DNA from: a virus
Virus record (IMG/VR): IMGVR_UViG_3300018914_000073
Location: 1-56,923 of that record
Length of the DNA stretch: 56,923 nucleotides
Direction: 5' to 3' (one strand)
The notes under the pieces: generated by a model
The model's input: only the letters and a program-made list of their open reading frames with translations
The model's database searches: none
What the model was told of the DNA's origin: nothing
Shown here: positions 1,578-56,923 of the stretch, in pieces
Position numbering within the stretch: position 1 is the first letter of the stretch
Layout of the letters: each line of letters begins with the position of its first letter
Translations under genes and position numbers: made by a program

Positions 1578-2094
1578 AACTTCAGAAAACGAGAGTTCGC
1601 TCCATCTTTACCTCAAAGGAATTGTTGGATCGCACTCATCCAACCCCGACGGAGGTGGGTCGAGGATTAGTCTCCGACCCACCGACTGGGTCTGCGACGG
1701 TCTGATCTGGGCTTCCGTCACGAGGCGCTGCGAGCCATCCTCTAAGCAGCGGGTGTGATGCTGATCCCCTACATCTTTACCGTGAGCAGACGCTCGACCT
1801 GCCAGGTCCGATACTCCTCCTGGCAGGGGCCCGACGCCGATGAATTGCAGGCAGGCGACCGTGTTGGGGACGAGAAGTCGATCTTTCCGTACGCGCCGCC
1901 TTCATTGCACCAACATCGACCCAGGCTCTGAGGACGTTCCACATCTTGAGCAGCATGAACCCCAGGCAAACCCGGAAAAACTGTCCAGACGCCACCATTG
2001 CTTGGGATTGAAATCAAGATTGCGCTTGTGACAGCTATAAGGTTGCTAGGCTCTAGCGAAACCTGCCGTAACTTCACCAAGCTCTTGGAAATAT
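1578..2094. other. Intergenic region with an inverted repeat at 1654-1683
   Basis: No gene is supported. A perfect 9-bp inverted repeat (GGTGGGTCG at 1654-1662, CGACCCACC at 1675-1683) follows the small gene and may end its transcript, though no T-run follows. The rest resembles degraded coding sequence but no family could be named. Confidence 0.4.
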
Positions 2095-2139
2095 TGGTGG
2101 GTGTGCAAGGATTCGAACCTTGGACCCGCTGATTAAGAG
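2095..2139 (-). other. tRNA-Lys(CTT) 3' fragment, left attachment site
   Basis: Read on the minus strand this is the 3' part of a tRNA: anticodon loop CTCTTAA (anticodon CTT), anticodon-stem strand TCAGC, variable loop, a T arm CAAGG-TTCGAAT-CCTTG, acceptor strand CACACCC, then A and CCA. The bases further 5' do not form the rest of a tRNA, so the match starts sharply in the anticodon loop. Such a 3'-end duplicate is what a phage integrase leaves when it uses a tRNA gene as attB. Orientation predicts the intact tRNA on the minus strand just right of the integrase, beyond the window. Confidence 0.8.
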
Positions 2140-2455
2140 AAATGCGCTCGCGGCTGATTTCCCTTAAATATCAATGTTGTCGGTTGCCAATACGCCGAGC
2201 CTGATCGGACATTTCCCCTCCGTAGAAGAACCACTTTGGCAACCACTCTACTGTAGCTGATCATCATGGCGCCGGATCCACCAGCCCTGTGGATACCGTG
2301 GATAACAGCCTGGTCCTTGAAGGGCGATTTCTACAACCACAAAATGAGCTGCCCGGGTCCTGACGATCCCTGCCGAGAACATCATAGAGACGATGCGCAG
2401 GCTGCCGAGGCCGTGAGGCTAGGAAGGCCTGAGGCTGCGAGCTATTCTGTTGCGC
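2140..2455. other. Left prophage end, non-coding
   Basis: Between the att fragment and the nuclease gene no ORF with coding character is seen. Integrase arm sites could lie here, but no clear repeat was found. Confidence 0.4.
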
Positions 2456-5867: not shown

Positions 5868-6575
5868 CTACGGGATCATGGCTTTGAGGGCTGAGGCATC
5901 GATGCCGAGAACGGCAGCGACGGCGACGAGGGCAGTGATGAGGGCCGCCATGGCAGCGAGAGCGGCAGGGGATGGACCGGCGGCGGGCGGCTGCGCCGCC
6001 GGGGTCGACGGGATGTCGCGAGGCGGAGGAACAGGAGCCGTGCCAGCCAGGCCCTTGGCCTTCGTCAGGGCGGCCTCAACGGCCTCGGCACTGATGAGGG
6101 ACTTGTTCAAGCCGTCGCCCGCGTAATAGCTCTGCCCCCGCTCCACCGTCCGGTGAGCGCCCCTCATGCGATAGGGCACCGGGAACGAGGCCCATTCCTT
6201 GGCGAGTTCGATCATGAACTCATGATCGGTCATGCGACCGGAGATCCACCTCTCGTAGCCGCGGCGCCGGAGCAGATACAGGCCTAGCCGGTCCTGATAA
6301 TCGGGCGTGAAGACGTCTTCCGCCTTCAGGTTCAGCTCGGTCGCTAGATCCCGGAGGGTGGCGTCCATGAACTGGTACCGGCCGCAGGCCGAGGAGCCGA
6401 AGGTCTTGGTGCGCCACTTCCCCTGATCCAGCACCTCTTTCATGGTCATGGAGGTCAGGGGCTTGGGCATCCGGTCCATGCGGTTGCCGTAGACGGTATC
6501 GTAGCCTTTCGGGGCTTCCTTCGATCCGATGAAGTCAAGAAGCATCGCCGCCGGCCTGGGGACGGTCTTATCCAT
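5868..6575 (-). CDS. Endolysin, lambda R-like murein lytic transglycosylase, membrane-tailed
   Basis: Residues about 10-165 match the lambda endolysin fold: FIGSKEAPKGYDTV carries the expected catalytic Glu (Glu20), SACGRYQF is the conserved GRYQ block, and WASFPVP the later one. A Pro/Ala linker (about 180-205) leads to a C-terminal hydrophobic helix (AALITALVAVAAVLGI) that lambda R lacks. There is no N-terminal signal, so release should need a holin; the C-terminal helix might tether the enzyme to the membrane. It starts the lysis cassette. Confidence 0.8.
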   Translation of the reverse strand: MDKTVPRPAAMLLDFIGSKEAPKGYDTVYGNRMDRMPKPLTSMTMKEVLDQGKWRTKTFGSSACGRYQFMDATLRDLATELNLKAEDVFTPDYQDRLGLYLLRRRGYERWISGRMTDHEFMIELAKEWASFPVPYRMRGAHRTVERGQSYYAGDGLNKSLISAEAVEAALTKAKGLAGTAPVPPPRDIPSTPAAQPPAAGPSPAALAAMAALITALVAVAAVLGIDASALKAMIP

Positions 6576-6675
6576 GGGGATTCCTCGGTTGTGGGGGAGT
6601 TCAGTCAGAAGCCGTCCACCCGAGCGACAGCGCCCGCCCGAATGTCTCGATGGTCATGATGGATCGTAGTGGGGA

Positions 6676-6702
6676 TAAAGAAAAAGCCGCCCGAAGGCGG
6701 CT
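6676..6702 (-). terminator. Terminator after the dioxygenase gene
   Basis: Perfect stem AGCCGCC/GGCGGCT around a 4-base loop, with TTTTTCTTTA following on the minus strand. It lies about 25 bases past the stop of the dioxygenase gene and before the endolysin gene, so the dioxygenase may end a transcript and lysis genes may need readthrough or their own promoter. Confidence 0.7.
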
Positions 6703-6727
6703 GTCTTAAGTCACTTCGTTTTCGTGC

Positions 6728-7540
6728 TTAGGGGATCATGCTCGGATCGAGATCAGCCAACTTGCCGTCCTTGATATAGTACGGCCAGGGCTTTGAGCAT
6801 TCCGCTTTTGCAAACCCGTTCATGTAGTACATGCGGTGGTGCTCGGACCGGTTCGGCTGTGAGCCATGGACGATCAGAGAAGACCAAATCAGCATGTCGC
6901 CGGGATCCGCATCGAAGATCTTTGTCGGCAGATGCTTGAACTTCTCCGCATTCTTGTTGCGATCGAAGCCGCGCAGTGATCCAAAATCATTGTCCTCGAT
7001 AATTCCGATGTCGCCCAGCTTATGGCTGCCCAGGACATATTCTACGCCACCGTTCTCCGCCCGCATCCGGTCAACGATGATCGCTGTTTGCAGATAGGCG
7101 TCTTGTTCGATGATACCTGGATACTCAGAGCGTGGGGACCGGAACATGATATCTTGGTGCCAAGCGAAGCTATCCCCATCCCCAGGCAGGCGATAATACA
7201 GCTGATTGTTCAGCTGCTTGACGTTCGGACCAAGGATCGACGAGACGATTTTCTGAAGCCGCTCGTCCTTCCGGTAGCGGTCGAGTGTCTCATTTGCCAA
7301 CGAAGGCCAGAAGATCAGGGCGGGAGACTCGCCACCGCTTCTCGTGGTGGTTTCCAGAGGGCGATACTTGTACCCGTTCTCGGTGATCTTGGAGAGCTGG
7401 GTCAGTGCCATGTAAGCCGCTGACCGGATTTCGTTCATCTCCTCCGGCCTGAAAACCCCTTTGATGACTGTAACACCATCACGGCGGTAAGCATCTACGT
7501 AACTCTCTTCCTTGGGCTTCCTCACGAGACCAAACATCAT
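6728..7540 (-). CDS. Phytanoyl-CoA dioxygenase (PhyH) family Fe(II)/2-oxoglutarate oxygenase
   Basis: A 270-residue cupin-type oxygenase. The iron triad is visible: His128 and Asp130 in WHQD and His225 in VHGSQPNRS, with Arg236 placed to bind 2-oxoglutarate. Family members hydroxylate acyl-CoAs, amino acids or secondary metabolites using O2; the substrate here cannot be read from sequence. It is not a structural protein, yet sits in the late block between fibre accessory genes and the endolysin, with a gap upstream and its own terminator downstream. It looks like cargo that may alter the host surface, a metabolite or the virion. Codon use is slightly more AT-rich than its neighbours. Confidence 0.85.
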   Translation of the reverse strand: MMFGLVRKPKEESYVDAYRRDGVTVIKGVFRPEEMNEIRSAAYMALTQLSKITENGYKYRPLETTTRSGGESPALIFWPSLANETLDRYRKDERLQKIVSSILGPNVKQLNNQLYYRLPGDGDSFAWHQDIMFRSPRSEYPGIIEQDAYLQTAIIVDRMRAENGGVEYVLGSHKLGDIGIIEDNDFGSLRGFDRNKNAEKFKHLPTKIFDADPGDMLIWSSLIVHGSQPNRSEHHRMYYMNGFAKAECSKPWPYYIKDGKLADLDPSMIP

Positions 7541-7633
7541 TGCCCCTCCCGGCTGAATATCGTTGCATACTCATCAGGAGGCCCGGGCGTGTCAACTGCC
7601 CTCCTCGGTCGCACGGCCCCTTCTGTGTAGGCC

Positions 7634-8161
7634 CTAGAGGTCAGCAAAAGCGAGATCGACCTGCTCGGTGGTCGTGACCTCTCCGGCATCGATCATCGCG
7701 AGCACGGCGGCCCGGCGATCGAAGGTCGCCTGCACGAAGGCTCCAACGGCAGCTGCAAAGGCAATCGCCTGAGCGGCACTCATCTGGATTGGCCCTGCCG
7801 CCGTGTCAAAGTTGAAAACACGCTCCGGCTCGAGCTGCGCCAAGTTCGCCATTCCGTTGATCAAGGTCAGGCTATCAGGGTCGGTCTGCACATAGAGACC
7901 ATTATAGCCAAATCCACCGGTCCGCTTTTCCCGGCTTACCTGGCGGACATAGGACTTAAGGCCCTCTACGCCCAATCGGTCTGCTTCCGCCAGAGCTTTG
8001 AGCAGCTCCTGCTCCGTCGGCAGTTCCCTGCCGTAGCGTTCCCGGATGCCATCGGCGTCCACCGTTTCGACGAACGCCTCGTAAGACGAGACATCCCGAT
8101 AGCCGTCGAGGATGCCGAGGTGTGTCAGGGCACGCCGGATTGCGATTTCATCGAGTGTCAT
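7634..8161 (-). CDS. DUF4376-containing tail-fibre-associated protein
   Basis: A 175-residue protein whose C-terminal half (about 78-175) fits DUF4376: KRTGGFGYNGLYVQTD, then SAAQAIAFAAAVGAFVQATF and a terminal IDAGEVTTTEQVDLA. These domains are common next to tail-fibre genes, where they serve as fibre accessory or assembly parts. It directly follows the fibre-region gene, and its start codon is separated from that stop by two bases. Confidence 0.75.
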   Translation of the reverse strand: MTLDEIAIRRALTHLGILDGYRDVSSYEAFVETVDADGIRERYGRELPTEQELLKALAEADRLGVEGLKSYVRQVSREKRTGGFGYNGLYVQTDPDSLTLINGMANLAQLEPERVFNFDTAAGPIQMSAAQAIAFAAAVGAFVQATFDRRAAVLAMIDAGEVTTTEQVDLAFADL

Positions 8162-8163
8162 GA

Positions 8164-8859
8164 TCAGCCGACCTTCTGGATGGTGATAAGGGTATATCGG
8201 TTTGGAGCGCCAAAGGTATTCGACAGACCAAGCCCGTAGGTCTGCCCTGCCAGCCCAACCTGATCGACGCGCTGTTCAATGCGGAATGTCTTGGTTGATG
8301 CTATGTTGATCTCGGTGAAGATGATCGCATAGGAATTCACAAGGTCAGCCGATCCGGCGTCGTTCGCGTTCGCGGTCGTGCTGTAGTCCACCACGACGGC
8401 ATCGGAGACGTTGTAGAGCCGCGCCATGTGGCGCTGGACGGCCTCACCGAGTACATAGGCTTGGAATAGATATCGCCCCGCTTGCAGGGTGAACTGATCG
8501 GACGACAGGGTCACGATGCCCTTCGGATCGGCGATAATCGCATTGGTCTTGCGCGTGAACCAGGTGTTGGCGGCCGGCGCATTGCCGGCATTCGTTCCGG
8601 CCGGCTCCGTGTGCGCGAGCACGGCATAGGACGACGCCTGGGCTGAGATCAAGGCTCTGATGGCCTTGAGAAGCTGGGTCGTGTCGCTTTCGCTCGGCGT
8701 CAGTACCTCTTTGATGACGTTGACAATCTCACGCTGCGGATGCTCGACGGCCCGCGGCGGGATGCGCGAGCCCTGTGTGCCGGCCGCGAGGTTGCGGCCG
8801 ACATAGCCGACGCTTTCGTTGAAGGGATCCGGCGTACCGGAGGGCGCGACATAGCGCAT
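8164..8859 (-). CDS. Putative tail fibre or fibre-tip protein
   Basis: This 231-residue product starts MRYVAPSGTP and contains a beta-rich region with alternating hydrophobic residues (VTLSSDQFTLQAGRYLFQAYV) typical of phage adhesin domains. The frame stays open far upstream, but that part is a shadow of the preceding gene; the ATG at 8859 is chosen. It lies between the gp48-fibre fusion and the DUF4376 gene, so host attachment is the likely role. Confidence 0.6.
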   Translation of the reverse strand: MRYVAPSGTPDPFNESVGYVGRNLAAGTQGSRIPPRAVEHPQREIVNVIKEVLTPSESDTTQLLKAIRALISAQASSYAVLAHTEPAGTNAGNAPAANTWFTRKTNAIIADPKGIVTLSSDQFTLQAGRYLFQAYVLGEAVQRHMARLYNVSDAVVVDYSTTANANDAGSADLVNSYAIIFTEINIASTKTFRIEQRVDQVGLAGQTYGLGLSNTFGAPNRYTLITIQKVG

Positions 8860-12456: not shown

Positions 12457-12720
12457 TCAGGAGCACTCGAAGGTGGGCGAGCCGTCGGAGATCACCGCGC
12501 CGCAGCCGCAGACCGAGCCAACCCGGGCGGCAGGCTTGCCCTCCACCTCAAGGTTGGGCGAGCCGGTGAGGATGGGCGTCACCCCATGACCGGGGATCGG
12601 GCAATCGTGGAGATCGCCGACCCGGGCGATGAGGATGCCGTCGGCATACGTGCGCGCGGAGGACGAGATGATGACCCCGCCATGATCGGAGGGGTCGCCG
12701 AGGCGAGCGACTTTGGGCAT
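12457..12720 (-). CDS. PAAR-domain tail spike tip protein
   Basis: An 87-residue protein that is almost wholly a PAAR fold: MPKVARLGD at the start, HGVTPILTGSPNLEVEGKPAARVG in the middle and CGCGAVISDGSPTFE at the end. His and Cys residues (HDC, HG, CGC) can hold the metal at the tip. PAAR proteins cap the spike of contractile tails and type VI systems. Its start overlaps the stop of the gp45-like spike gene by one base, so the two are made together. Confidence 0.85.
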   Translation of the reverse strand: MPKVARLGDPSDHGGVIISSSARTYADGILIARVGDLHDCPIPGHGVTPILTGSPNLEVEGKPAARVGSVCGCGAVISDGSPTFECS

Positions 12721-13115
12721 CAGGAATTGATCTTCACTTTGCCGTCGGCGGTCATCACCATGGTGGCGGCGCCGCAGACATGCTCGATCTTCTGGGCATG
12801 GACGATGCGCATGTTGCTCTGCACGAGCGACACCGCCGAGCCGTACATGTCGTAGAGCACCGTGCCGCCGAGCTGGGTGGCCTTGGGCCGATACTGCGGA
12901 TGTTCCAGCCCGAGGACCGCAACGAGATCTCGCTGCCCGTGCAAGGCCATGCCGATGCCGTGGGAGCCGGCGGGCGGATGGGAGGAGAGGCCGAACGGCT
13001 GCACCCGATGCACCCGGGTCAGCTCCTCGCCCCCGACGCCGAAGAGGGTGACCGTCTGCTGGCCGCCATCGTCCTGCGTCTCGCGCAGCTCGGTGCGGAA
13101 GATGTCGTAGTTCAT
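12720..13115 (-). CDS. Baseplate spike protein, Mu gp45-like
   Basis: A 131-residue protein with an OB-fold-like start (TVTLFGVGGEELTRVHRVQPFGL) and GVGxHGxRDL-type turns (ALHGQRDLVAVLGLEHPQYRP) seen in the gp45/gpV family. The C-terminus has short strands likely to form a triple-stranded beta spike. It overlaps the hub gene upstream and the PAAR tip gene downstream. Confidence 0.85.
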   Translation of the reverse strand: MNYDIFRTELRETQDDGGQQTVTLFGVGGEELTRVHRVQPFGLSSHPPAGSHGIGMALHGQRDLVAVLGLEHPQYRPKATQLGGTVLYDMYGSAVSLVQSNMRIVHAQKIEHVCGAATMVMTADGKVKINS

Positions 13116-14170
13116 TCCAACAGCCCCTTGCCGGCGTCATAGGCTTTGTCGGACTTGCCCTTCGGCTTCTTGCCGCCATGGCTGCGCGGGTCGACGAAGG
13201 TGAGTGCCGCGGTCGCGCCCTGATGGTTCTGGGTGAAGGTGACGCTGGACAGGATCATGTCCTGATCCACCCGCTCGCTCGGCAACTTGATTGCCATCAG
13301 ACGTCCGGGCTCCCAGAGCAGGCCGTCCGCATCGCGCCAGGTGGTGACCGTGATCGAAATCGAGGTGCTCGTGCCCTGCCGCCGCAGGCGCTCCCATTGC
13401 GCCCGGGTCTTCAGGTCCTCCTCTGTGCCGTCCCCTTCCAGGAACACGACTAGAGGCCGGTAGCGGCCGACCTCAGGGTCGTATTCCTTGACCTCCTGCC
13501 GCAGATCCTTGGCGCTGGTGCCGAGCGCGCGCTGCGCCTTCGCCGTCACCTCGGAGAACTTGCCCTCGGCCGAGAAGCTCACGCCGAAGCGCTTGATCGG
13601 CGGCTGGCCCTCGACCAGTGCCCCGGCATGGCGCTTCGAGCCGGCCCGGGTGATGAGCACGCCGCCGTCGGGCTTGCCCATCAGCATCAGGCCCTGCGCG
13701 CGCGCCTCCCGCTCCAGGGTCTCGTGCACGCTGTCGGTGGGATAGCGCTGCACCTTCGGGATGGGCTTGAGCGGCACGTCGGCCTCGTAGCCGATGCCGA
13801 ACTCGTCGAACTCCTTGGCCACGTCCAGGAGGGTCTTGCCCTCGACGCGGCCGGTGGGGTGCTTGGCCGGCGGACAGTCGATGGCATCCGCCGCCTTCGA
13901 GCGGCCGGAGACGCGCACCTCGTGCTGCCCGCCTTCGCCGTGATCGGCCTCGTAGCGGTCGGTGTAGCCCCGGCATAGAAGCGTGCTGTTGGGATAAAGC
14001 TCCACCAGCGCGCCAAGCCGCAGCTCCCAGGCATCCTCGTGCCAGGATGGGTTCGTGGCCTTGAGGCCGAAGGTGATCGCCGCCTGCTCCATCGAGCGGG
14101 TGACGTTCACCTCCTGGAAGCCGGCGAGCTTTTTGCCGCCGACCACCAGGGTCACGATCTCTTCGGTCAT
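13112..14170 (-). CDS. Baseplate hub protein, Mu gp44-like (gpP)
   Basis: A 352-residue hub protein of the gp27-like/late control D superfamily. It starts with the typical VTLVVGGKKLAGFQEVNVTRSMEQ, contains YTDRYEADHGEGGQHEVRVSGRS and ends with ITVTTWRDADGLLWEPG and a Lys-rich tail. Its start overlaps the stop of the C-terminal gpN-like gene (ATGA). It links the tail tube to the spike. Confidence 0.9.
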   Translation of the reverse strand: MTEEIVTLVVGGKKLAGFQEVNVTRSMEQAAITFGLKATNPSWHEDAWELRLGALVELYPNSTLLCRGYTDRYEADHGEGGQHEVRVSGRSKAADAIDCPPAKHPTGRVEGKTLLDVAKEFDEFGIGYEADVPLKPIPKVQRYPTDSVHETLEREARAQGLMLMGKPDGGVLITRAGSKRHAGALVEGQPPIKRFGVSFSAEGKFSEVTAKAQRALGTSAKDLRQEVKEYDPEVGRYRPLVVFLEGDGTEEDLKTRAQWERLRRQGTSTSISITVTTWRDADGLLWEPGRLMAIKLPSERVDQDMILSSVTFTQNHQGATAALTFVDPRSHGGKKPKGKSDKAYDAGKGLLE

Positions 14171-27304: not shown

Positions 27305-29308
27305 TCAGATGTAGGGGTCGGATGCCGTTGCCATCGGGCGAACAACAGGACTTCGCGCAGACCCGGTAGATTGCTGAGGCTGGGCCCCGGCCTCTTCGGC
27401 CGGGGCGCTCCGCCGGCTAGCGGTTTCGGACAGTCGCTGCACGTTGAGCATGTACCCGGCAGCGCCCTGCATCGCCTCGCAGTCGAGATAGTGGTTATCC
27501 TTCGACCGCTGAACCCATTGCACCCTCCCCGAAGGACGCTTCACGCGTGCCTCAGAGACGATCTGCATGCAGTAGTCGTTGTCGACGTCGATCGGCAGAT
27601 GCCACGCCCCGAGCTGATCGGAAGGCCAGCGCACACGCTCGTGAACCCAGCTTTTCCAGTAGTCCGTGTCCAGGCGTACTAGTTCGAGGCCGTATTTGTT
27701 GGCCCGGCCATCCCGGTTCACCTCAAGCTTGCTGACGACCAGCGGGGTCTTGAGGGGAACCGACGAGCCTTTCGTCGGGCGCACGTGACGCTGAAACTGC
27801 CGGCAGAATTCATAGACACGGTTCAACGGCAAGGTATCGACCTTGCCCGGCCGGAAACCGGAATCCACGAAAGCTAGCTTGATTGGGATACCTGCCACCG
27901 GTGTGGTGACGAGGTCCGCAAGATCCGCCCAGATCTCCTCATCGGTCGTGGGCCCGTGCAGCACCCCATGATCGATCAGCCAGGAGGTGGAGCGGGCTCC
28001 CCAACCACGGATCACCCAATAGATCACGTTCTTCTGGACGTCAGCCGTCAGCGTGAGATGGATCACGCCTTTCGGCACCTCTCCACGCTCATAGCCGGAA
28101 TCGGTCCGTTTGCTCGCGACCTCCGTCCATTCAGGGGCATCCCCGCCGCCGGGCGCATAGAGCTCCCCGAAGCCGGTATTGATGACGCCCTGGATCTTCT
28201 CCTGATCACCAGAGGCAACCGCCTCAAGCCACTCCGCCGCACGCTCGCCGAACGTGACAAACGGCGATGCCAGCCCGGATACCCAGAACGAGAGCGTCAA
28301 CGAAGGCGGGGGATCGCCGATGACCTCACCCTCGGGCGTGACCATCTGCCCGGGCGCCACATAGACGCCCCTGGCATTCATCTCCGCCTTATGATGCTCC
28401 TCGATGATCCCGCCGCAGTCCTCCCGCGGGCAGACCATGAACGCCTTGCGTTGCGCCTGCTCCGGAGTGGCCTTTTCCGGCCACCGCAGCTGGCGGAACC
28501 TCGGGACGAAGTACTCACCGCAGCAGGGACATGGCCATGCCCAGTGATGGCGGGTCCCGGATTGCCACAGCTTCCAGATCGGGCTCTCAAGATCGCGGGG
28601 ATCGACCTTCTTCCAGAACTCGAGGCCGCTGTCCGGGTCCTTCTCCACGTCAACTGCACCCTTCTTCGGGGTCGATGTCACCACGACCTTCCGGTCGCGG
28701 TAGGTGAAGCCTCGGGCCTTCACGACAGTCAGGGGATCACCGTTCCCCTTCACGTCGGTCACCATCTGATCGAGCTCGTCGACGTGGACGTCGCCGGCCT
28801 GATCGGACGAGAGCTGCGTTCCGGATCCGGCCCAGGCCAGACGAAGTGGTACGCCAGCCACCAGCTTGCGGGTCTTCTTCATCCGCTTGCCGCGGGCGAC
28901 CTTGTTCTGGAGCGTCGGCGCCTGGTCGAGCAGCTGCATGATGCGAGGCTCGAGCTGGTCAGTCAGGAAGTCCTTGGACGGGCCCACATAAAGCTGCGGG
29001 CGCGGCCGGGTGTCGAGACGCCAGCCGACCATGTCCAGCACCGCGTCGGTCTTGCCCATCTGGGAGCCACAGACCAGGCAGAGCACCCCGTAGGACACAC
29101 TGTCGATCGCATTGGAGAAGGGGACCACATAGGGTGTGTAGTAGGGGTCCCGCTTGCCGGGCCGCCCCGCCGAGACCGGATACCGCCTACTCTTCTGCGC
29201 CCACTCCGTCGGAGTCATCCGGGGCGTCGGCTTCAGCAGCGTCGCGGCCCGACTGGATATCGCTCGCAGCCCGTGCGCACCTCTCGCTGATTTCGGCAAG
29301 GACAGCAT
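27305..29308 (-). CDS. Terminase large subunit, GpA-type
   Basis: An ATP-driven packaging motor and nuclease. Walker A is GSQMGKT (about 81-87), Walker B the VHVDELDQM block, and the CPCCGEYFVPRF and CPREDCGG Cys pairs are typical for GpA. The nuclease part holds LAFVDSGFRPGKV. A TTG gives a longer frame, but the ATG at 29308 is preferred; an ATG at 29221 is also possible. It overlaps the small subunit by about 120 bases, and the GpA type implies cos or similar site cutting. Confidence 0.9.
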   Translation of the reverse strand: MLSLPKSARGAHGLRAISSRAATLLKPTPRMTPTEWAQKSRRYPVSAGRPGKRDPYYTPYVVPFSNAIDSVSYGVLCLVCGSQMGKTDAVLDMVGWRLDTRPRPQLYVGPSKDFLTDQLEPRIMQLLDQAPTLQNKVARGKRMKKTRKLVAGVPLRLAWAGSGTQLSSDQAGDVHVDELDQMVTDVKGNGDPLTVVKARGFTYRDRKVVVTSTPKKGAVDVEKDPDSGLEFWKKVDPRDLESPIWKLWQSGTRHHWAWPCPCCGEYFVPRFRQLRWPEKATPEQAQRKAFMVCPREDCGGIIEEHHKAEMNARGVYVAPGQMVTPEGEVIGDPPPSLTLSFWVSGLASPFVTFGERAAEWLEAVASGDQEKIQGVINTGFGELYAPGGGDAPEWTEVASKRTDSGYERGEVPKGVIHLTLTADVQKNVIYWVIRGWGARSTSWLIDHGVLHGPTTDEEIWADLADLVTTPVAGIPIKLAFVDSGFRPGKVDTLPLNRVYEFCRQFQRHVRPTKGSSVPLKTPLVVSKLEVNRDGRANKYGLELVRLDTDYWKSWVHERVRWPSDQLGAWHLPIDVDNDYCMQIVSEARVKRPSGRVQWVQRSKDNHYLDCEAMQGAAGYMLNVQRLSETASRRSAPAEEAGAQPQQSTGSARSPVVRPMATASDPYI

Positions 29309-29696
29309 TGATCTCGTCTTCGATTTTCCTCCGGACAACAACGTCTTCCGTCACCCGGGCCGGCACCGATGCGAGGTCTGACACCAGTGAACCAATGATC
29401 GTGTCGAAGGCCGCCACCGCGTCCTCGACGGGCATCAGCAGGCGCTCGGCCTCATCGTTCTCGCGGCGCATCCGGCGGACCCGCTCGGCCTCAAGCGGGT
29501 CTTCCGCCTTTCGAGCGTCCGTTTCCGCTTTAAGCTTCCCACCGAAGTAGGCTTCGACGCTCTCTTTGAGCAGGTATTTTCCCCTGCCCGCCTTCGTCAG
29601 AACCCCTTGATCCGCAAGCTGCCGGATCCGGCGGTCGGTCAACGACAGCAGCCATCCGAGGGCACGCCCACTGACTTCGGTCGGGAGGTCTGTCAT
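29187..29696 (-). CDS. Terminase small subunit (Nu1-like)
   Basis: From the ATG at 29696 the protein has 169 residues. It opens with a winged-helix region (VSGRALGWLLSLTDRRIRQLADQGVLTKAGRGKYLL, shown in part) that recognises the packaging site, followed by a coiled-coil region (RVRRMRRENDEAERLL) and an acidic tail. Neighbours are the large subunit and a gpZ-like gene. Confidence 0.8.
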   Translation of the reverse strand: MTDLPTEVSGRALGWLLSLTDRRIRQLADQGVLTKAGRGKYLLKESVEAYFGGKLKAETDARKAEDPLEAERVRRMRRENDEAERLLMPVEDAVAAFDTIIGSLVSDLASVPARVTEDVVVRRKIEDEINAVLAEISERCARAASDIQSGRDAAEADAPDDSDGVGAEE

Positions 29697-32274: not shown

Positions 32275-34053
32275 ATGCCAATCTTTCTCCACGGCCTCGC
32301 ACTTAGGTTCTACAGGGGCATCGGTCCGAAGACCGCGCGCCTTGCCCCGTTCAAGGACTTCAACTTTTTCATCGGCGCCAACAACGCAGGCAAGTCAACG
32401 GTTCTGAATTTCATCTCCGAGCATTTATTTCCGCTTCGATCCGCCTCACGGAAAAAAATTGCTGGTAAAGCTCTGTCGCCTCTTGAGCAATATAGAGGTG
32501 AAGAAACAGGCCAAACAGAACTCGAGATTGCCATCCCTATTGATCAGTTCAAGGCAACCTGTATCGAGCACCTTCAGCCGTCACACGATCATAGGTATGT
32601 AGAAAACATCGTTAGTCGAATATGCGATCACATTGCTGAAGATGGCTTCGTATGGCTTACTAATACGGTTCCGATCACAGGTGAGTTCAGCCTGAGGATC
32701 CAAGCAGACGACCTGATAGGCATCCAGGATATTAGTATACAAGACTGGAACCGCGTCTGGAACGCTGCAACGGCGCGGTCTGGCGGGGGTCTCCGTGATC
32801 ATTGGATTCCTGAGACCCTACACCGCTTTAAGACGGTTCAAAATATCGGCTTGCCCGAGGTGAAGCTCATCCCTGCCATACGGCAGATTGGGCCGAGCGG
32901 AGCAGAATTTTCGGATTTCAGCGGACAGGGCCTGATAGATCGATTGGCGCAGATCCAGAGCCCTGATCATGACATGCGGCATGAGCGAGAACTCTTCGAC
33001 AAGATTAACACGTTCCTTCAACAGGTAACTGGTCGCGAGAACGCGGTGATTGAAGTGCCCCATAATCGCGGGCACATCCTGGTCCACATGGACAACAAGG
33101 TTCTGCCTCTCACCTCATTGGGGACGGGCATCCATGAGGTGATCATGATCGCGGCATTCTGCACTCTCAGTGAGAACCAGATTGTCTGTATTGAGGAGCC
33201 TGAGATCCACTTGCACCCTCTGCTGCAGAGGAAGCTCGTCCGGTACCTACAAGAATACACCAGCAATCAGTACTTCATCGCGACCCATTCGGCAGCCTTC
33301 ATTGATACTCCAGGAGCCGCTATCTTCCATGTCACAAATGACGGGAAGCAGACCCATATTTCGGAGACTGTTCTCCCTAGCGAGCGGTACTCGATCTGCG
33401 TCGATCTGGGGTACAAGGCTTCGGATATTGTCCAGTCGAATGCTGTAGTCTGGGTAGAAGGCCCATCAGATCGCATATATATCCAGCATTGGATAAAGGC
33501 CGTAGCTCCGGAATTGATCGAAGGAATCCATTACTCGATCATGTACTACGGCGGGCGCTTGTTGAGTCACCTCAGCGCTGATGAAGACGAGATCAATGAA
33601 TTTATCGCGCTGAGGTCCCTCAACCAGAACCTCGCTCTTGTCATGGACAGCGATCGTAAACACGCTCGAGACAGCATCAATGCGACGAAAGAGCGTCTAA
33701 AGCGCGAGTTGTCGAGTGGTCCAAGCGTCGCGTGGATCACAAGGGGACGTGAGATCGAGAACTACATCGACCATGTCGCGCTGCAGGCTGCCGTTAAAGA
33801 GGTATACAGCTCCATCTATGCAGAACCGGCAGCCGGCGGCCAGTTCGATCACGCTCTCTACTTCAAGAGAACTGGACCCAGGCGGCGGCGAAGAGTGGCT
33901 GTCAGCGAGGGATCTCAGGATCTTATTCAAACGGATGTCGACAAGGTCAAAGTCGCGCGCCTCGTTTGCCAACAACCTGCAAATCTAGACATTCTAGACC
34001 TCAGGGAGCGAGTGGAGGAGCTGGTGGCTATGATCCGGCAGGCCAACCACTAA
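32275..34053 (+). CDS. OLD-family ATPase/TOPRIM nuclease
   Basis: A 592-residue protein with an ABC-type ATPase: Walker A GANNAGKST (34-42), signature-like SLGTGIHEV (281-289), Walker B IVCIEEPEIHLHP (303-315) and switch His in THSAAF (337-342). The C-terminal TOPRIM domain has Glu395 in VEGPSDR and the acidic pair Asp458/Asp460 in VMDSDRK. P2 Old and related proteins are ATP-regulated nucleases that stop other phages. No helicase partner follows, so it looks like the single-gene OLD type rather than a GajA-GajB pair. Codon use differs from the prophage average. Confidence 0.85.
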   Translation: MPIFLHGLALRFYRGIGPKTARLAPFKDFNFFIGANNAGKSTVLNFISEHLFPLRSASRKKIAGKALSPLEQYRGEETGQTELEIAIPIDQFKATCIEHLQPSHDHRYVENIVSRICDHIAEDGFVWLTNTVPITGEFSLRIQADDLIGIQDISIQDWNRVWNAATARSGGGLRDHWIPETLHRFKTVQNIGLPEVKLIPAIRQIGPSGAEFSDFSGQGLIDRLAQIQSPDHDMRHERELFDKINTFLQQVTGRENAVIEVPHNRGHILVHMDNKVLPLTSLGTGIHEVIMIAAFCTLSENQIVCIEEPEIHLHPLLQRKLVRYLQEYTSNQYFIATHSAAFIDTPGAAIFHVTNDGKQTHISETVLPSERYSICVDLGYKASDIVQSNAVVWVEGPSDRIYIQHWIKAVAPELIEGIHYSIMYYGGRLLSHLSADEDEINEFIALRSLNQNLALVMDSDRKHARDSINATKERLKRELSSGPSVAWITRGREIENYIDHVALQAAVKEVYSSIYAEPAAGGQFDHALYFKRTGPRRRRRVAVSEGSQDLIQTDVDKVKVARLVCQQPANLDILDLRERVEELVAMIRQANH

Positions 34054-55296: not shown

Positions 55297-55614
55297 ATGC
55301 GCGCGATCACACCACCCTCAGCCCCCTCCATCCGTTTCCGGGTCGAGCCGGGAGACGTGCCGCCCGAGAAGGCAGCCCGCCGGCTGCACCTGACGCTGGC
55401 CGAATTTACCCGCCTCCTGCCCGATCTTAGGAGGCGCGGATTTCCGGACGCTGACCCAACCACAGGTATGTATGACCTCGAGGCCATCGACGAATGGCGC
55501 CGGAATCGGTGGCGGAAGGAGGGCTTGACCCTCGGCCCCCCCACCCAGCAGGCTTCGGCCATGGGCATGTCGGAGCGGTTCAATGCGGCCAAGAATGGGA
55601 ACAGGAATGGTTGA
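55297..55614 (+). CDS. Putative excisionase
   Basis: A 105-residue protein with a winged-helix pattern of AlpA/Xis type: VPPEKAARRLHLTLAEFTRLLPDLRRRGFPD, then YDLEAIDEWRR (shown in part). Its 3' end overlaps the integrase start, so both are made from one transcript, as usual for xis-int pairs. Role inferred from fold and place. Confidence 0.65.
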   Translation: MRAITPPSAPSIRFRVEPGDVPPEKAARRLHLTLAEFTRLLPDLRRRGFPDADPTTGMYDLEAIDEWRRNRWRKEGLTLGPPTQQASAMGMSERFNAAKNGNRNG

Positions 55615-56923
55615 TCTGCCCCGCTACGTCAGAGCTCGTCCGAAGCCAAATGGCCGAACGTTCTACTACTACGAGCGGCATCGGGGCACGCCGCGGGCTT
55701 GGCCGCGCCTTTCCCTACCGTTTCATCCTCAGGCGCCAGAATTCTGGCTTCGGTGCAGGCAATGCGAGCGGCTGGACGCCAATCGGAACGATGACGGTAC
55801 ATGGGCCTGGGCTTGGCTGTCCGATACCGGCCGGCGCTATGTGTTGCCTGATCCGAAGGGCGACGCCGGCATCGATGCTTTTTGGAAGGCCATCGATAAG
55901 GCAGAGGCGGCCGACGCTGGCTACCTTGCCGGGGTCAACAAGACATTCAGGGCGCTCATCGAGCAATACAAGGAGCACGCGGACTATCTGAAACTCTCTG
56001 CCTCAGCCAAGGGCGATTACGACCGGTACCTCAACGTCGTTCTGAAGGCCTGGGGCGACGATCCGGTCAACGAGCTCACGGCCGAGATCGCGCAGGCCGC
56101 GATCGACACCTACCAGAACGCACCGGCCTCCGGCCGCTATTTCCGCTCTGTCCTGTCGAAGCTCGTGGCTTTCGGCATTCCCCGCGGCTACTCCGACAGC
56201 AACCCTGTCGAGCACACCGAGAACATCAACTACGATAAGCAACCCTACAAGCCTTGGCCGGATTGGGCTTTCGAGCTTTTCTTCGAGTTCGCCAGGGTCA
56301 GCCTCCACCTGCCCGTCTACTCCGCCCTGTATACAGGTCAGCGGAAGGTGGATGTAGTGCCGATGCTCAGGCCAAAGCGGGAAGACACCGTCATTGAGCT
56401 GGTCGCCCGCAAGACCAAGGCCAACGTGTGGGTTCCCATCCACTCCGAGTACCGCCAGGTGATTGATGCGACCCGTCTGGTCGGCGCCGATGGCATCCCA
56501 CAGATCGAGCACAGCCGCCTCCATCTGACCGAGGAGGGCGAGCCATGGAGCTACGAGGGATTCGCGACGGCCTGGCAGCGCGATATGACCTTCACCGTCG
56601 ACGAAGCCAAGGCAGAGGCTTCAGGCCTCGACCTGGCGTGGCTCAGGGAGAAGGAAGCAGCCATGAAGCGGCTGCGGGCCGAGGGGCTGGTCTTCCACGG
56701 CCTGCGCAAGAACGCCGTGAACATGCTTCTTGAGGTCGGATGTACCGAGGCCGAGGTCGCCGCGATCGTCGAGATGAGCGAGCAGATGGTGCGCCACTAC
56801 TCGAAGGACGTGAACAAGCGCAGGTTGGCAGTCAACGCGATGAAGAAGCTCGAAGCCGGCTGGGCCGACACCCGCAAACAGCTCTTCGGCGGCACGGTCC
56901 ATCGCCTCGTCAAGAACAGCTGA
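55607..56923 (+). CDS. int: Tyrosine-type phage integrase
   Basis: A 438-residue recombinase. The catalytic set is visible: Arg246 in YTGQRKVD, Lys in ARKTKAN (269 or 271), His364 and Arg367 in FHGLRKNA, His397 and nucleophile Tyr398 in VRHYSKD. The N-terminus (RPKPNGRTFYYYER) suits arm-site binding and has a Cys pair (LRCRQCER). It is the last gene of the early operon and should cut within the tRNA-Lys 3' end, as the left att fragment shows. The stop is the last base of the window, so the gene is complete. Confidence 0.9.
   Translation: MVDLPRYVRARPKPNGRTFYYYERHRGTPRAWPRLSLPFHPQAPEFWLRCRQCERLDANRNDDGTWAWAWLSDTGRRYVLPDPKGDAGIDAFWKAIDKAEAADAGYLAGVNKTFRALIEQYKEHADYLKLSASAKGDYDRYLNVVLKAWGDDPVNELTAEIAQAAIDTYQNAPASGRYFRSVLSKLVAFGIPRGYSDSNPVEHTENINYDKQPYKPWPDWAFELFFEFARVSLHLPVYSALYTGQRKVDVVPMLRPKREDTVIELVARKTKANVWVPIHSEYRQVIDATRLVGADGIPQIEHSRLHLTEEGEPWSYEGFATAWQRDMTFTVDEAKAEASGLDLAWLREKEAAMKRLRAEGLVFHGLRKNAVNMLLEVGCTEAEVAAIVEMSEQMVRHYSKDVNKRRLAVNAMKKLEAGWADTRKQLFGGTVHRLVKNS

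Follow-up and report, generated by a model that had tools for sequence, protein, structure and literature searches.

The stretch of viral DNA analyzed here (the window, 56,923 nucleotides; IMG/VR record IMGVR_UViG_3300018914_000073) carries an intact oxygenase gene on its minus strand at 7540..6728, an uninterrupted open reading frame of 270 codons with an ATG start and a stop at 6728-6730. A strong Shine-Dalgarno-like sequence, GGGAGGGG, lies ahead of the ATG. Upstream on the same strand are a DUF4376 / PHROG 10508 tail-fibre-assembly-like gene (7634..8161, identified by Pfam and PHROG profiles) and the tail fibre gene (8164..8859; its start was taken from the related locus L019, and the listed reading frame reaches 9087). 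The endolysin gene lies downstream (5868..6575, minus strand; PHROG 90, 1.2e-38).

An intrinsic terminator (6685..6702, minus strand) was found immediately 3' of the oxygenase gene. The number of terminators in the scan was not above the shuffle expectation, and the assignment is supported by conservation: an identical hairpin follows the fibre-assembly gene of L019 and a variant is present in L020. About 50 bp ahead of the ATG, a perfect −35-like hexamer, TTGACA (7590..7595, minus strand), is followed after a 17-bp spacer by GAGTAT (7567-7572), both read by eye. Because the latter is a poor −10 and the consensus promoter scan reported none, a promoter of its own is a weak possibility.

The probable prophage and its host

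The initial annotation took the gene to be carried by a prophage, and the wider window makes this very probable. It encodes terminase, portal, protease, capsid, sheath, tape measure, Mu-like baseplate, PAAR and fibre proteins. A segment resembling the 3' end of a tRNA (2093..2140; by eye, its anticodon loop is that of a Lys tRNA) is the probable attachment site. At precisely this segment the related isolate prophage record L113 ends, matching its 48 bp at 100%; the host-like sequence to its left is shared with L112 at 90-94%. The reading frame at 55583..56923 (plus strand), which gave no match in Pfam, has a C-terminal HGLRK...Y-like motif by eye and is a putative tyrosine integrase. The host is probably alphaproteobacterial and rhizobial-like, as weakly indicated by one Mesorhizobium match (35%) of a host-flank protein.

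Several other features of the window were recorded. The best terminase match among GenBank phages (window 27305-29341) is to Microcystis phage Mae-JY30, at 50%, whereas the other indications favour a proteobacterial host. A protein with a PAAR motif and a long extension at its N terminus (12457-13179), within the baseplate module, is a candidate tail spike tip. An AAA_15/AAA_21 ATPase gene (32275-34053, plus strand; GC 51-53%, GC3 0.61) lies inside a minus-strand region and is likely another cargo gene, a candidate for OLD/Abi-like defence. Past the terminator, an 18-codon remnant (6604-6660, minus strand; MTIETFGRALSLGWTASD, then a stop) resembles the start of an endolysin of the L021 type (MTTETFGRALTLV...). 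It immediately precedes the present endolysin, which is a different one; the remnant in L113 is very similar, and the feature looks like the scar of a lysis-gene replacement.

The oxygenase and its predicted fold

The 270-aa product is matched by the Pfam PhyH profile PF05721 over positions 1-212 of 213 (E=2.6e-22). With a score of 80.6 bits (cut-off 22) over nearly the full profile, a chance match is ruled out. We aligned the window protein with 31 relatives of about 40% identity. The iron ligands H128-x-D130 ('FAWHQD') and H225 ('VHGS') do not vary among the 32 sequences, nor does the 2-oxoglutarate arginine, R236, which stands 11 residues past the second histidine, the spacing of His264 and Arg275 in human PHYH. 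The complete iron triad and 2-oxoglutarate arginine of the initial annotation are thus present and invariant.

The AlphaFold2 model built from this alignment (pLDDT 91.7, pTM 0.89) has the double-stranded beta-helix fold and matches solved oxygenases of the PhyH clan with Z scores of 21-26, at structural-alignment identities of about 13-22% to any solved member. The protein therefore belongs to the PhyH family on all testable features, namely profile, HxD...H plus Arg, and predicted fold. The conserved residues and the confident predicted fold suggest catalytic activity, which the initial annotation had considered plausible.

The closest structural matches of the model are GriE, a leucine 5-hydroxylase (Z 26.0), and H11, a proline hydroxylase (Z 25.9), with lower scores for SnoK (22.9), EctD (22.8), human PHYH (22.8) and AviO1 (22.6); GriE is also the best phmmer match in the PDB. 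GriE and H11 are only about 20% identical to the window protein, and the context of the gene does not imply free amino acids as substrates. The window protein shares the full-length profile match, the motif and the fold with the PhyH (phytanoyl-CoA dioxygenase) family, but gives no sign of phytanoyl-CoA specificity. The sugar-tailoring oxygenases SnoN/SnoK and EvdO1/AviO1 act on glycosylated natural products. They belong to the same clan (SnoK, SnoN and AviO1 at Z about 22.6-22.9), but they are 16-20% identical to the window protein and come from antibiotic biosynthesis. Only a few Z units separate the amino-acid from the sugar oxygenases, so likeness of fold does not settle the substrate, and a substrate call from the fold matches was dropped.

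No PHROG family matches the protein. Known NCBIfam equivalogs (ectoine hydroxylase, methylphosphonate hydroxylase and chlorinating enzyme) were rejected because their scores are far under the cut-offs, the similarity to the methylphosphonate and ectoine hydroxylases being weak.

A variable cargo slot

Comparison with L019, which is 94-95% identical to the window across the tail genes, delimits the oxygenase gene as an insert. L019 aligns up to window position 7638, in the fibre-assembly gene, and again from 6704 to 6677, at the terminator, the two aligned parts being separated in L019 by about 28 bp of different sequence; the block of about 933 bp that carries the oxygenase gene (6705..7637, minus strand) is absent. 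No PhyH gene was found between the fibre genes and the lysis genes in L020 or L113. The equivalent slot of L021, which is 77% identical, holds a gene for a 494-aa, nine-TM protein with weak likeness to PMT_2 (E=0.0016, below the cut-off) and a methyltransferase-like gene on the opposite strand; a search for relatives of the nine-TM protein recovered only the protein itself. The equivalent slot of L112 holds, also on the opposite strand, a gene for an RTX/serralysin C-terminal-like protein (7066-7851). In related prophages, then, the site is empty or is filled by a pair of membrane-glycosyltransferase-like and methyltransferase genes or by an RTX gene, which makes it a variable slot for cargo.

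The composition of the gene (GC 54%, GC3 0.69) also differs from that of twelve late genes (65%, GC3 0.80 ± 0.06); the adjoining DUF4376 gene has a GC3 of 0.70 as well. By insertion and composition, the oxygenase gene is single-gene prophage cargo, or a 'moron'. The pair formed by the window and L019 is a clean natural presence/absence comparison for the effect of one oxygenase.

Phage clade, glycan-enzyme neighbours and possible function

Relatives of the window protein were found mainly in viral metagenomes. IMG/VR contains about 66 loci with homologues, with dozens of phage loci at 37-46% identity, whereas a tblastn search of 50,697 GenBank phage records (E<=1e-3) gave MW202801 as the sole match; with one such record, the clade is apparently near-uncharacterized. 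A scan of genome contigs recovered only two contigs of phage-like type (in MAGs, about 40%), a Nostoc fragment (45%) and remote homologues, and 385 alphaproteobacterial genomes contain a distinct set of stand-alone oxygenases at no more than 36% identity. With the latter sister clade as outgroup, the phage set, including the window protein, is supported at 100/99. Bit scores against the window protein fall in disjoint ranges (164-219 for phage relatives, at most 140 for the sampled alphaproteobacterial ones). Two sequence signatures of the phage set, 'NNQ-Y-[YF]R' and 'RM-YMNG', are both found in the window protein; their counterparts in the sister clade are 'INQ-HWKPPG' and 'RR-Y[IL]NG'. An earlier tree, in which remote cellular sequences served as outgroup, suffered from long branches and was superseded; it paired the window copy with that of MW202801 (Manatee Spring) at 82/87, a placement left open within the phage clade by the later tree. 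As judged from these sequence comparisons, the branch is one that occurs almost only in phages.

A recent capture from the host is thereby ruled out among the sampled genomes, and the scenario that the initial annotation had set against its own view, a chromosomal homologue marking recent capture with no conservation among phages, is the reverse of what was found. That the gene is a recently captured, non-functional passenger we consider improbable, more so than any other alternative weighed here. Its foreign composition and its presence as a single-gene insert missing from close relatives fit such a history, but the reading frame is uninterrupted, the residues invariant in the clade are all kept at about 40% identity, the Shine-Dalgarno-like sequence ahead of the ATG is strong, and the gene derives from a phage clade and not from the sampled hosts.

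The neighbours of the phage homologues provide the main clue to function. A SAM methyltransferase, a NodB-like deacetylase and a GT2 glycosyltransferase lie within 3 kb of the PhyH gene in 51 of 59 IMG/VR loci (45 of the 50 with adequate flanks, and 26 of 33 clusters at 90%). The NodB-like and GT2 partners have Pfam matches above the cut-offs (4.5e-11 and 1.4e-9); the best match of the methyltransferase is under its cut-off (7e-5), and a glycine-rich motif is present. The order of the genes varies (MT-NodB-PhyH-GT, GT-PhyH-MT-NodB and MT-NodB-GT-PhyH), as do their strands, with GT2 inverted in L047. That the linkage persists through such rearrangement makes a functional tie a better explanation than mere co-inheritance. 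Several deeper branches (L038, L043, L045, L063, L037 and MW202801) have the cassette, or PhyH together with other glycosyltransferases, next to genes for the major capsid protein or terminase or to those of the portal region.

MW202801, from an uncultured Manatee Spring podovirus, holds the nearest relative by tree path (UOF82071, about 45-48% identity). Six genes lie there between the capsid and phage stabilization genes (MW202801.1, L002 18169-22832), in the order Fe-S oxidoreductase, glycosyltransferase, PhyH, methyltransferase, NodB-like and glycosyltransferase. The window copy, in contrast, stands alone beside fibre and lysis genes. The methyltransferase, NodB and GT2 partners have no match in the window, and membership of its PhyH gene in a four-gene MT-NodB-PhyH-GT2 cassette was rejected for that reason. 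L040 and L062 also have PhyH without recognizable partners on the short flanks available, so that solo copies may exist elsewhere. It is possible, though somewhat short of an even chance, that the phage PhyH clade characterizes a previously undescribed cassette of four glycan-tailoring genes, spread across unrelated and mostly metagenomic phages, which would make an oxidized, deacetylated and methylated sugar on the virion or the host surface, and of which the window gene would be a solo, separately mobile member.

Since the partners of the cassette transfer, deacetylate and methylate sugars, we infer that the oxygenase acts on the same glycan, and we put the chance that the window protein is a glycan-tailoring hydroxylase of host-made or virion sugar at about even. 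A self-contained cargo gene would have entered a temperate phage with a Mu-like tail, at the variable slot that separates the gene for tail-fibre assembly from the terminator of the late genes. Its product, a functional Fe(II)/2-oxoglutarate oxygenase from the phage-specific clade, presumably co-expressed with the late genes, would hydroxylate or otherwise oxidize a glycan sugar in late infection or in the lysogen. The target could be a surface glycan made by the host, or a precursor of it, so that the receptor is altered, or a glycan on the virion; with no partner genes in the window, the solo enzyme would have to use a host-made sugar. The benefit might lie in a changed receptor, in the exclusion of superinfecting phages or in a decorated virion. 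Clade membership, the partner genes, the late context, the content of the L021 slot and the sugar-acting structural relatives speak for such a role. The higher ranking of the GriE and H11 folds over the sugar-acting ones counts against it, as does the cellular sister clade, whose genes have no obvious glycan cluster and, by eye, some neighbours resembling amino-acid metabolism (neighbours in GC-rich cellular genomes were called with GC3 guidance). The link to the cassette rests on relatives of 37-46% identity, across which the substrate could have shifted. From the proximity of the fibre genes the initial annotation had suggested modification of a receptor, a surface glycan or lipid, or the fibre, with a metabolic benefit to the lysogen as another option. 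The inference from position is weaker now that the site is seen to be a variable cargo slot, while a glycan role gains from the partners in other phages.

The same structural ranking, together with EctD, the phmmer match to GriE, the weak NCBIfam likenesses and the stand-alone cellular sister genes, favours the main rival, a hydroxylase of a small molecule (amino acid, osmolyte, phosphonate or acyl chain) of metabolic benefit to the lysogen or infected cell. Cyanophages are known to carry PhyH genes, and a role in converting 2-oxoglutarate to succinate has been proposed for the PhyH of the T4-like core (Sullivan et al. 2010, PMC3037559). The window protein is likewise a phage-borne PhyH-family oxygenase, but it shares only about 10-13% identity with the cyanophage proteins in structural matches and differs from them in branch and context. 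The tblastn search of the GenBank phage records matched no cyanophage, its sole hit being to another kind of phage, and gave no support for a place in the cyanophage branch. With members of the clade linked to glycan genes and a common fold that is no guide to substrate, we regard the small-molecule alternative as rather unlikely, though it is the strongest of the competitors.

Some 2-oxoglutarate oxygenases modify proteins and nucleic acids, and the PhyH gene adjoins fibre genes. The product might then hydroxylate a residue of a phage protein, such as the neighbouring fibre, or a nucleic acid. This seems improbable, only slightly less so than the passenger explanation; L019 and L020 retain a near-identical fibre gene without PhyH, and the partners elsewhere are glycan enzymes, none of which acts on proteins or nucleic acids.

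A glycan-tailoring role would share its logic with the cargo of serotype-converting Shigella gtr/oac phages (PMC3636060), in which a prophage gene alters the surface glycan. Their cargo is a glucosyl- or acetyltransferase, whereas that of the window is an oxygenase and the conversion putative.

Phage PhyH genes are usually classed as auxiliary metabolic genes and explained via 2-oxoglutarate or nitrogen metabolism. A distinct PhyH clade tied to glycan enzymes over rearranged loci points to a concrete, testable substrate class. Phage PhyH is of a known kind, but neither this clade nor its cassette or solo form seems to be described in the open-access literature searched, where nothing relevant on a phage cassette of PhyH and NodB was found.

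The Nostoc fragment (L026 9983-13837, Nostoc sp. CHAB 5836) has a shortened, phage-type PhyH reading frame (112 aa), followed by a methyltransferase gene and one for a 980-aa protein containing NodB-like and GT2-like parts. This locus probably represents the cassette in a diverged form, either cellular or relict.
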